64,000 nucleotides of DNA, taken from assembly GCF_000003815.2 (NCBI RefSeq), contig NC_049995.1, positions 1,268,587 to 1,332,586 of the forward strand, written 5' to 3'. Position numbers and translations under genes: made by a program. Numbering within the stretch: the stretch's first letter is position 1; the number at the start of each line of letters is the position of its first letter. The DNA comes from Branchiostoma floridae. Taxonomy: Eukaryota > Chordata > Leptocardii > Amphioxiformes > Branchiostomatidae. Below the pieces are notes generated by a model. It was not told the origin of the DNA. It ran no database searches and saw only the letters and a program-made list of their open reading frames with translations. Below are positions 52,831-63,100 of the stretch, piece by piece.

Positions 52831-54334
52831 CCCTTGGGGGAGAGAGTAAGTGCTGGAGGTCAAAAAGGTAAAACGCGCAAAGTGGCAGGGAGAGGGGAAA
52901 ATGTGAAAAGTAGTTTAAGTAGAGAGACTCTGAGAGGCAAAGAGTATGAGATTCTCGCATTACAAAAATTGTATCTCTACTCCACCTCTGTAGTGTTGCT
53001 CGGACACCTGTTAGATTCTCAAGTCTCAGATTCTTGCCAGAGATCTTTGATATCAATTTATGATATAACGTCAGAAACTGGTCGGTGCTGTCCACAACAA
53101 GACAAATGATTTTGGCCCCCCTAGTAAGTCATTTGCATGACATTTACAAATTTAAAGCTCTTAAAATCTCATGGAGGTATGAGGTCGCCGAACTCTAATT
53201 TTATAATTTTATGGAAGCAAGCTTCTACTCAACGCGATCTATTTCTATAAATGTCCAAATTATATTTATTGCGTGAAAGTCCTATCCCTAGCTATATTTA
53301 TATGTCATGTAATACGCCACGTTGATTCGTATGTCATGGGCTCCTAAGGGCACCCGTCCTATATGTATTATATAGGGGTAGGCCTGAAATTACACTAAGA
53401 CGAACCCTCTTGAATGACGGAAGGGAAATGGTCTGAACAGCATGGAAAGCATGGCAGTAGCAGAACAAGACCGCACCAATGTTGCGGGTGGATCTAAGGC
53501 AAAGTTAATTCTATTCTATGCATGGATGGCATGCTCGGGGAACCCCAAAATTATTGCAGGCGTGCGAAGAAAGTTTGGCAAAGAAATGTTGCTGTTTGTT
53601 CTATCACATTTCTTAATAAATAAATCCTATTAACTTTGGGGTTGCTGTTGTTGCTTTCGTTGTGACATGATGAAGAACAGTAGGTTTTTCTTTTTATTCT
53701 TTCACATCTTCATAATGAATAAATATTTATCAACTTTGGAGTTGCTATCGAATATTCGAAACGGACAAAAATTGACTCTTGAGCGGTTTTCGACGGCTCA
53801 TATTATCGAAATGATGTCTATTGTCACCAAAAATGAAGACCCTGGAATCTCAAGGGCATTTCGAACAACTGAAATTACTTTTCGAACTTTGAAAGGGAAA
53901 ACGTACCAAGGCGTTTTTACTCTTTTGTCTCACGTTTGTGAATATAAGCTTTTGTGCAGAGTTCTTTGTCAAAGGACCCGGAAAACACTTGCAAATCAAT
54001 GCATCTATAACAGTTGTAGCCATACAGAAGGAAAGATACAATGACCATGAGTGAATGATCCAAATACAACTTTGCCCTCTTTTCAACCTTACCATGTCAA
54101 AAACAGCATAATTATGATGAATAAGGAAAACATACATGGTCAATTTTCTTTGGTAAGGTTTGAACGTCTTTACAAATCAAAAGTAGGATTGCTTCATAGC
54201 GTTCTGTTTGCAATATGTACATCTTTTGGACCCAGTTACGGCAGCTAAGCACGTGTTGGAGGCCGGATTCGTCGCAATTTTGTGTACAATAATAAGATAT
54301 CCCTAATGGGATACGTTTCTAGACACACTTGATT

Positions 54335-56110
54335 AGTTGTACATAAATTGACAGTGTTCAGCACCAAGGACAGACTTAGTTGTACATATATTGACAGTGT
54401 TCAGCACCAAGGACAGACTTAGTTGTACATATATTGATGGTTTTCAACACCAACGACAGATTTAGTTGTACATATATTGATGGTTTTCAGCACCAACGAC
54501 AGACTTAGTTGTACATATATTAATGGTGTTCAGCACCAACGACAGACTTAGTTGCTAATATATTGATGGTGTTCAGCACCAAGGACAGACTTAGTTGCTA
54601 ATATATTGATGGTGTTCAGCACCAACGACAGATTTAGTTGCTAATATATTGATGGTTTTCAGCACCAAGGACAGACTTAGTTGCTAATATATTGATGGTT
54701 TTCAGCACCAAGGACAGACTTAGTTGCTAATATATTGATGGTTTTCAGCGCCAAGGACAGACTTAGTTGCTAATATATTGATTGTTTTCAGCACCAAGGA
54801 AAGACTTAGTTGCTAATTTATTGATGGTGTTCAGCACCAAGGACAGACTTAGTTGCTAATATATTGATGGTTTTCAGCACCAAGGACAGACTTAGTTGCT
54901 AATATATTGATGGTTTTCAGCACCAAGGACAGACTTAGTTGTACATATATTGATGGTGTTCAGCACCAAGGACAGATTTAGTTGCTAATATATTGATGGT
55001 GTTCAGCACCAAGGACAGACTTAGTTGTTCATGTATTGATGGTGTTCAGCACCAAGGACAGGCTTAGTTGTTCATGTATTGATGGTTTTCAGCACCAAGG
55101 ACAGACTTAGTTGTACATATATTGATGGTTTTCAGCACCAAGGACAGACTTAGGTGCTAATATATTGATGGTTTTCAGCACCAACGACAGACTTAGGTGC
55201 TAATAAATTGATGGTGTTCAGCACCAAGGACAGACTTAGTTGCTCATGTATTGATGGTTTTCAGCACCAACGACGGACTTAGTTGTACATATATTGATGG
55301 CTTTCAGCACCAAGGACAGACTTAGTTGCTAATATATTGATGGTTTTCAGCACCAAGGACAGGATTAGTTGTACATATATTAATGGTTTTCAGCACCAAG
55401 GACAGACTTAGTTGTTCATGTATTGATGGTGTTCAGCACCCAAGACAGGCTTAGTTGCTAATATATTGATGGTGTTCAGCACCAAGGACAGACTTAGTTG
55501 CTAATATATTGATGGTGTTCAGCACCAAGGACAGACTTAGTTGCTAATATATTGATGGTTTTCAGCACCAAGGACAGACTTAGTCGTACATATATTGATG
55601 TTTTTCAACACCGAGGACAGACTTAGTTGCTAATACATTGATGGTTTTCAGCACCAAGGACAGACTTAGTTGTACATATATTGATGTTTTTCATCACCGA
55701 GGACAGACTTAGTTGCTAATATATTGATGGTTTTCAGCACCAAGGACAGACTTAGTTGTTCATGTATTGATGGTGTTCAGCACCAAGGACAGACTTAGTT
55801 GTTCATGTATTGATGGTGTTCAGCACCAAGGACAGACTTAGTTGTTCATGTATTGATGGTGTTCAGCACCAAGGACAGACTTAGTTGTACGTATATTGAT
55901 GGTTTTCAGCACCAACGACAGACTTAGGTGCTAATATATTGATGGTGTTCAGCACCAAGGACAGACTTAGTTGCTCATGTATTGATGGTTTTCAGCACCA
56001 AGGACAGACTTAGTTGTACATATATTGATGGCTTTCAACACCAAGGACAGGATTAGTTGTACATATATTGATGGCTTTCAACACCAAGGACAGGATTAGT
56101 TGCTAATGTC
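54335..56110 (+). repeat. 43 bp satellite array
   Basis: About 41 copies of CTTAGTTGCTAATATATTGA followed by TGGTTTTCAGCACCAAGGAC and AGA. Two main variants alternate (GCTAATATA and GTACATATA/GTTCATGTA). It ends at 56110 in a diverged half unit. Confidence 0.96.
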
Positions 56111-60162: not shown

Positions 60163-63100
60163 ATGAGAATCATCCAGCTGAAGTTGTGGCGCCTGTGCAG
60201 CTGTTTCACTGTCATCTTCAACTTCTTCAAACGGCTGCTGTGGAGGTCACATGGTCGACGGAACAGTGACACCCCTCTCCCCTCTCACAGCAGTGGTACG
60301 GTCCCAGTACAGGCCCCAACAGCTTCAGGGAATGAGGTAAAACACGCTGTGATTTAGTTTTTTCCCGATACCTATCTGCCATAAACACTGGAAATATGAG
60401 TGTTTGTGCTACGGCATTGTTTAAACCACAGCAAATTCTTCTGTTCCACTCATACATAGAATTGCTCTTGTCCTACATTATTTGCAAAATTGAATGAATA
60501 TGATATAGATATATGGTACAAGTCTAACTTATCACTCACTCACATGTCCTTATATGGCACAAGTCTAACTTATCACACTCTCATGTCCTTATATGGCACA
60601 AGTCTAACGTATCACACTCACATGTCCTTATATGGCACAAGTCTAACTTATCACTCACTCACATGTCCTTATATGGCACAAGTCTAACTTATCACTCACT
60701 CACATGTCCTTATATGGCACAAGTCTAACTTATCACACTCACATGTCCTTATATGGCAGCCAGAGCTCACCTCTTGGACAGACTGGGGTGATGGACCCAC
60801 CAGTGTGGAAGTGGTGCCCAGCAGTACACAGCATGATGAGGACCAACCTGAACCTGACTACTTCCAGGACATGGCACCACAGATTAAACGACCAACCAAG
60901 GTGAGCGTTACTTCCAGGACATGGCACCACAGATTAAACGACCAACCAAGGTGAGCGTTACTTCCAGGACATGGCACCACAGATTAAACGACCAACCAAG
61001 GTGAGCGTTACTTCCAGGACATGGCACCACAGATTAAACGACCAACCAAGGTGAGCGTTACTTCCAAGACATGACACCAGAGATTAAACGACCAACCAAG
61101 GTGAGCGTTACTTGCAGAACATGACACTGCAGATTAAACGAGCAACCAAGGTGAGCGTTACATCCAGGACATGGCACCACAGATTAAACGACCAACCAAG
61201 GTGAGCGTTACTTCCAAGACATGACACCAGAGATTAAACGACCAACCAAGGTGAGCGTTACTTGCAGAACATGACACTGCAGATTAAACGAGCAACCAAG
61301 GTGAGCGTTACATCCAGGACATGGCACCACAGATTAAACGACCAACCAAGGTGAGCGTTACTTCCAAGACATGACACCAGAGATTAAACGACCAACCAAG
61401 GTGAGCGTTACTTCCAGATTAAACGACCAACCAAGGTGAGCGTTACTTGCAGGACATGACACCGCAGATTAAACGACCAACCAAGGTTAGCGTTACATCC
61501 AGGACATGGCACCACAGATTAAACGACCAACCAAGGTGAGCGTTACTTCCAGATTAAACGACCAACCAAGGTGAGCGTTACTTCCAGGATATGACACTGC
61601 AGACCAAATGGCTAACAAAGGTGGTTGTTACTTCCAGCACACAGCACTGCAGATTATTTTTATAGGAACCCAAGATACTGAATCTGGATGTAACCTATAG
61701 AGTTTTTGTGCTGATTCAGACATGAAAAAATTGTTTTTTACAGAATTGTTGTCTGTGGTTTATATGGCAAAACATGTGTAATATGTATTGTAGCTTTTTG
61801 CTTAAAATGATGTAGTGAAGTAATAGCGCAACGAGGAAGAATTAGGGTCACTAATTGTTCCTTCAGTTCTGTATCATACATGATATCTATGAATCTCTCT
61901 GCAGATTGTAGTAAAGAAAAAACTTCATTCAGAGCCAATGGAGGACCTAGGGAGTCTGTCCAGCCGTCTGTCTGCAAGCACTGACGCAGGACTGTTACCT
62001 GTGGTGAGTAAACAAACAAACAAACAAACAAACCTGAATGGATGGGAGAAACAAATTTACAAATTCTTTTCAAGTCTATTCTCTGTCTGCCATGGCACTT
62101 AAATCAAAATTGTTGAATGTCAATACAATATAGTACTATTGGGCGTCTCAGACAGAATATTTATTGCTTGAAAATTGAGGCATGTTGGAATGGAGCCAAT
62201 CGTGTGGCAGACTATCACTTCTGTTACGTTTTTAATAGCAATGTTGGAAGCACAACATCAAGTTCTAGCATAAATATCCACGTGGTTGTTGAGTTATAAG
62301 GCCTCCCTACCTACATGTAGCACGGCTCGAGGGTGTGTCAAAGAAATGTCCGCTCCATATACAGAAGTTTGCACTTTCAAGAGAAATGTTCACTTACAAA
62401 GGAAGAAACGCCCACTTTCCAAGAGAAATGTACGCTTGAAAGTCGAGAAATGTCCACTTTTCTAGAGAGATGTACTCATTGGTCAGGGGGTGCTAGTATC
62501 ACCTGTGGCAGTATGTCTTACATGGAGAACAAAGTGATTGATAAAACCAGTCTGATTTATGCAGACATAATTCCAGCAGGTCACAGATACTCCTGATGAA
62601 TGGGTCTAGAGAGATGTCCAATGAAACATCCCCCAGTATAACACACTCCTGTGTATCTATACTGTACATACCTGTGGGTCCTGCACTACAGATCTCTCAA
62701 ACAGATACATGTATGGCAGACACACAAGATGTTCCAGTGGCATGCATGGCCGAATGACAAGCAACCTGGAGAATAACAAAAATGGTGACAATCTGGGCAC
62801 AGAGAGAAAAAAGCAACTTCATGCTCAGTGTATGTGATAAACTTGTGATCTATAACATTTGAATTTTTATGTTTATTGTTTATAATGTATGCCTGTTAAA
62901 CTGTTGTAAAGCATACATGTAGCACACAGATGTATTGTGAAGCTATGTAAACTATACAGAATGTCAACTTCACCTCCCACCCTACAAGACATTCCAATAG
63001 AAGCTAGCTAGGCATGGGAAAAAATGTTGTGTTTCCTGTTTCCTGACATACCCTAACATAGTGCCAACCCTAGACTTTTTTTGGGTAGGCAATGGAGTCA

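Follow-up and report, generated by a model that had tools for sequence, protein, structure and literature searches.

In the lancelet Branchiostoma floridae, the 5′ splice site at the end of the second coding exon of an EBAG9-like gene is followed by a long series of copies of itself, which raises the question of how this array arose, which of its donors is used for splicing and whether other exon ends of the genome are built in the same way. The window, i.e. the whole stretch of DNA analysed, comprises 64,000 nucleotides (C17:1268587-1332586), and the genome searched was a 513,431,437-base assembly.

The gene and its donor array

Within the window the host gene consists of four exons (coordinates in Table 1), and it encodes a protein which, by comparison with human EBAG9, we take to be EBAG9/RCAS1; searches of Pfam and PDB with this protein gave no match. 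When the protein was used as query against the genome, 11 matches were obtained at E up to 1, all of them in this gene, and neither a second nor a processed EBAG9-like copy was among them; a processed copy as a record of the spliced form was thereby rejected. A CAAA microsatellite (62004-62031) lies directly after the exon 3 donor.

Table 1. Features of the EBAG9-like gene around coding exon 2, in positions of the window.
Feature	Position	Strand	Remarks
Intron upstream of exon 2	60336..60759	+	424 nt
Second minisatellite, 39/41-bp units, with six CTAAC branch-point-like motifs	60510..60758	+	one CTAAC per unit
Coding exon 2	60760..60900	+	141 nt; starts and ends in phase 0; in one continuous frame with exons 1, 3 and 4
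End of exon 2 included in the repeat unit (42 nt)	60859..60900	+	42/42 nt common to the next three junctions
Authentic exon 2 donor GTGAGC	60901..60906	+	no. 1 of 14 identical donors
Intronic part of the donor minisatellite	60901..61655	+	15 additional junctions, 13 with the identical donor and one each with GTTAGC and GTGGTT
Array-bearing intron, exon 2 to exon 3	60901..61904	+	1004 nt
Coding exon 3	61905..62003	+	acceptor AG at 61903-61904

Sixteen tandem AAGGT junctions were found between 60901 and 61621. Fourteen of them, the authentic donor included, read AAGGTGAGC and present the identical donor GTGAGC after AAG; the two deviant ones are the 13th (61486, GTTAGC after AAG) and the 16th (61621, GTGGTT). 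The repeat unit is made of 42 exonic and 8 intronic nucleotides and measures 50 bp, with two units of 35 bp. TRF placed a 50-bp array from 60859 with a score of 957 (regular part 11.2 copies, 92% matches) and a 150-bp higher-order period with a score of 1138, and at these scores the array is far beyond chance. Units 1 to 4 show no difference over their 50 nt, later units follow a 150-bp pattern of three units each, and divergence is greatest in the last one, at 13 of 50 positions. The sequence around donors 1 and 2 is identical between -42 and +116, and that around donors 1 and 3 between -42 and +66; because of these long shared flanks the cell would have no local cue by which to distinguish the first three donors, which differ in their order and in their distance from the upstream acceptor.

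Tandem identical donors behind exon 2, in an array that is recent or has been homogenised and shows a higher-order repeat of 150 bp, had already been proposed in an initial annotation made from the letters of the window, and the proposal agrees with this anatomy. Its unit of exon end plus donor also stands, with the exonic share corrected from 33 bp to 42 nt (plus 8 nt of intron); the 33 nt are the part of the unit that follows an internal CAG, and both the 11 in-frame codons per 33-nt piece and the TGA in the next unit were read correctly. Absent from that account was the second array (60510-60758), with which exon 2 is flanked by two minisatellites, one for each splice signal. In this second array the true exon 2 acceptor AG (60758-60759) is found at the end of the last unit alone; the other units have CAC in place of CAG, and their sole AG lies within ACAAG.

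For the origin of the arrays, a 70-nt query from the donor array and an 80-nt query from the acceptor-side array were run in a DNA search of the genome, giving 16 and 3 matches, respectively, all at this locus; the search skips very common words, and the uniqueness of the array units holds within it. A dispersed repeat or transposon (introner-like) as the source was rejected on these matches, as far as the search sees, and since the unit queries of both arrays are confined to this locus, each array has most likely grown from the gene's own sequence.

Relation to known repeats at splice sites

Tandem repeats over exon-intron boundaries of amphioxus genes have been termed 'mirages' and are described, in the available parts of two reports, for globin, Adh3, TnC and PGBD5 genes (PMC3087553, PMC3902484), the globin mirages being those of BflGb6 and BflGb9 (PMC3087553). 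They can involve 5′ or 3′ boundaries, their length can vary between haplotypes and at Adh3 also between somatic cells, and the mRNA is apparently undisturbed at Adh3, TnC and globin, which for PGBD5 was inferred only; it was suggested that they may occur throughout the cephalochordates and may give rise to new introns (PMC3087553, PMC3902484). The EBAG9-like array is a minisatellite-like tandem repeat of a 50-bp unit which spans an exon-intron boundary together with its splice signal (42 nt of exon, and the donor within 8 nt of intron); it fits the definition of a mirage and is a new case of a known class. Its 14 identical donors and the presence of minisatellites at both ends of one exon set it apart from the BflGb6 mirage, whose haplotypes have 6 and 3 units of 150-160 bp, and from that of Adh3 with units of 10-72 bp, as given in the part of the source available (PMC3087553). 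The amphioxus huntingtin paper mentions tandem repeats, and its accessible part does not mention mirages (PMC2206037).

Splice-site copies are also found in other systems, among them intron gain by tandem duplication, where duplicated AG and GT sites serve a new intron. Tandem-array introns of human genes are reportedly the subject of work by Zhuo et al. from 2007. In the potato RdRp gene, as far as the accessible part of the report goes, the likeness is a duplicated splice-site sequence inside a gene (PMC4974935). Unlike in these two systems, the EBAG9-like copies lie inside an existing intron, which suffices for the gene model. Minisatellites in introns of alternatively spliced Caenorhabditis elegans genes resemble the array as intronic repeats near splicing decisions, but the linked CeRep25B minisatellite holds intronic motifs, with no sign of a copied exon end and donor in the part of the report available (PMC4039745).

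Splicing consequences

Whichever of the 15 downstream donors is used, the frame meets a premature stop in the array or in exon 3, which precedes the exon 3/4 junction by 92 to 765 nt; early stops are common in any intron, so these are no argument for design. Predicted U1 pairing was -9.6 kcal/mol for all 14 identical donors, -6.9 kcal/mol for the exon 1 donor and -8.7 kcal/mol for the exon 3 donor, and as the 14 donors are equal in this prediction, donor strength cannot govern the choice between them. According to the available part of a study of human splicing, the upstream donor was used exclusively in five minigenes with identical competing donors and 365-nt introns, and it was preferred in 725 natural cases of near-equal donors flanked by long introns on either side; of 4171 natural human pairs of 5′ splice sites taken without control for strength, about 60% favoured the downstream site (PMC9225289). 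Given equal donors and introns of 424 and 1004 nt, longer than those of the minigenes, the first donor would be expected to win. By this rule, which comes from human cells, the array is most likely silent and splicing would proceed on the first donor.

The explanation that we favour, with good confidence for it as a whole, joins exon-end duplication, first-donor splicing and decay of other products. As a mirage, the array would have started when the 3′ end of exon 2 was duplicated in tandem along with the adjoining 5′ splice site, and it would have grown in steps of 50 bp and 150 bp, presumably by unequal exchange or slippage; nearly all of it lies in the intron. Under exon definition, exon 2 would be read as a unit from its 3′ splice site to the nearest 5′ splice site, that is, to the first donor, and transcripts made from a downstream donor would carry a premature stop and presumably be removed by nonsense-mediated decay. 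The anatomy, the single locus and the premature stops in this explanation are observed. With its locally indistinguishable donors, the EBAG9-like array offers a clean natural test of exon definition.

An unlikely alternative, touched on in the initial annotation as a tuning or decoy role, is a poison-donor or U1-decoy regulator, in which regulated use of downstream donors would lead to decay, or U1 would be held and splicing of the intron slowed, with array length tuning the output. It could draw on the broken frame behind all 15 alternative donors, 13 of which are predicted to pair with U1 as the real donor does (-9.6 kcal/mol), but conservation is no higher in the donor than elsewhere in the unit: among the 14 units of full length (the two of 35 bp were left out), 4 of 9 donor positions and 16 of the 41 others are variable, and when the units ending at 61486 and 61621 were dropped the values were 0 of 9 and 9 of 41 (P = 0.14). 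Purifying selection on the array donors was thus not seen among these units, and the exclusive first-donor use in human minigenes, in the part of the report available, also speaks against a regulator (PMC9225289); we found no support for the proposed role.

Much less probable still is an array of micro-exons, also put forward initially, in which 33-nt pieces would be spliced in and each would add 11 codons. The pieces have a suitable length (33 nt, exactly 11 codons in phase 0), and each starts after an AG and ends at a donor. However, the nearest internal acceptor-like AG leaves an intron of 17 nt, pyrimidines occupy 7 of 16 positions at -20 to -5 as against 9 to 11 of 16 in three real acceptors, three of the 16 copies have CAAG in place of CAG, and the stretch 60901-61655 contains a single branch-point-like CTNAY, located in its last full unit. 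An assembly artefact, with copies added or collapsed, would be the least probable reading: minisatellite copy number is often wrong in assemblies, but the ordered 150-bp pattern of differences and the strongly diverged last unit (13/50) are hardly the product of false expansion.

Donor arrays in the genome

Regular donor triples were counted in the whole genome as three AGGTRAG motifs with spacers of 30-60 nt. This gave 7899 matches (4090 + 3809) as compared with 358 (188 + 170) for the reversed motif; corrected for the single motifs (148,070 AGGTRAG, 118,305 reversed), the excess of the donor heptamer in triples is about 17.6-fold. Near-donor controls, as raw counts, gave 947 for AGATRAG and 2569 for its reverse, 1525 for AGGTYAG and 662 for its reverse, so that 7899 is 3.1-fold above the largest of the five raw control counts (358, 662, 947, 1525 and 2569); at least one AGATRAG array (C1:29308986) bears the donor motif on the opposite strand. 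With the period fixed at 50 and four donors, the counts were 116 vs 27. Acceptor motifs gave 211 triples for TTTCNCAG (117 reversed) and 146 for TTTGCAG (136 reversed), and since AGGTRAG probably captures more of the donors than these motifs do of the acceptors, the contrast between donors and acceptors is suggestive and inexact. The 100 AGGTRAG-triple matches listed, which cover the first 2.4 Mb of one chromosome, represent 12 arrays, one of them with 37 matches (8.3 matches per array), and on this basis the 7899 matches would correspond to roughly a thousand arrays genome-wide.

Thirty arrays were sampled, 12 among the listed AGGTRAG-triple matches and 18 of the 20 among the listed period-50 matches, the two left out being that of the EBAG9-like gene itself and one simple repeat. 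For 24 of the 30 arrays, Pfam was searched with the longest open reading that leads to the first donor (the other six readings, of <20 residues, were excluded). Seven of the 24 matched at an E of 0.001 or better, five of these above Pfam's own cut-off: two dynein motor regions, CMIP6, an HNF-1 N-terminus, a coiled-coil family, ribophorin I and Vps52. The opposite strand of the sampled stretches, used as control, gave 0 matches in 26 at E up to 0.01 (Fisher P = 0.003). Six of the 24 peptides, picked by apparent recognition and without opposite-strand control, were searched against the PDB sequences; five matched (dynein heavy chain, acyl-CoA synthetase, RAD50, which is the Pfam coiled coil, Hsp110 and ATP13A2) and one did not. 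One further sampled array sits at the same exon as the ATP13A-like array. In total, 12 of the 30 sampled arrays are observed behind a protein-matched exon; the other 18 are unexplained. An assignment of array B1 to a leucine-zipper kinase was rejected and left uncounted, with no match in Pfam or PDB.

The protein match extends to the final codon before the first donor in six arrays (A3, A10, B9, B10, B14, B18) and stops 6 to 30 residues short of it in five (A2, A4, A8, B6, B11); in A8, and perhaps in A2, the true exon end is probably at an earlier junction missed by AGGTRAG. Reading past the first donor met a stop within 51 nt in 11 of 11 arrays (EBAG9-like gene included, A2 and A8 excluded). 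The exon-side part of the unit was 70 nt long in A8, where it exceeds the period, and 6 to 51 nt in the other 12 of the 13 arrays measured. A general gradient of divergence outward from the exon was rejected, as none of the 9 testable arrays out of 10 gave P <0.12 (positions with >40% mismatch excluded). In A9 (C1:1464398), an array with a 39-bp period and no protein match, one frame is open before the array and through the stretch examined, and use of a later donor there would allow extra units to be translated.

Three dynein-heavy-chain-matching exons, each with a donor array (A2, A3 and A4), are located within about 18 kb (C1:221146-239258) and may belong to fewer than three genes; the same stretch has further runs of AGGTAAG at C1:222126-222432. 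The donor arrays of two ATP13A-like exons 0.7 Mb apart (C14:20733544 and C14:21445836) share one unit; the array may therefore predate the duplication of these exons or be shared by exchange.

Possible causes of the donor bias

Donor-seeded minisatellites, of which many similar arrays are observed, look like a genome-wide habit of the lancelet. We give roughly even chances to a systematic process, specific to 5′ splice sites, which seeds and maintains minisatellites at exon ends and which would have left about a thousand of them with runs of identical competing donors; for such genes to work, splicing would have to obey a strict first-donor rule. About half as probable, in our judgement, is a process at the level of DNA that would duplicate AGGTRAG-like sequence anywhere, without link to splicing, so that exon ends would be hit merely through their motif. 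The 17.6-fold excess of donor heptamers in regular triples is in keeping with such a process, as is the lack of an accepted protein match before 18 of the 30 sampled arrays (six of them too short to search). Against it stand the protein-coding exon before the other 12, with the match reaching the last codon before the first donor in 6, and the fact that untranslated or fast-evolving exons would evade a test by protein match.

A donor bias without acceptor bias calls for a mutational or selective cause. Repair or replication that favours donors may be responsible, or better survival of arrays on the intron side under the first-donor rule, or homogenisation by the selected exon copy. No report of a genome-wide donor bias was found in the literature searched, a search lacking most subscription papers; it is this bias, and the absence of a clear counterpart at acceptors, that specialists would not expect. 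Provided that the genome-wide count stands, routine RNA data would allow exon definition to be tested in a large number of genes together. The donor arrays also provide raw material for intron and exon gain.

A further minisatellite in the window

At 54333-56102 the window contains a minisatellite with a 43-bp unit in about 41 copies. It gave 12 matches to the Rfam family mir-2060 (E up to 0.01; one match above the gathering score), one of them at 55798, and the mir-2060 'hairpin' may be two folded repeat units and not a microRNA gene.
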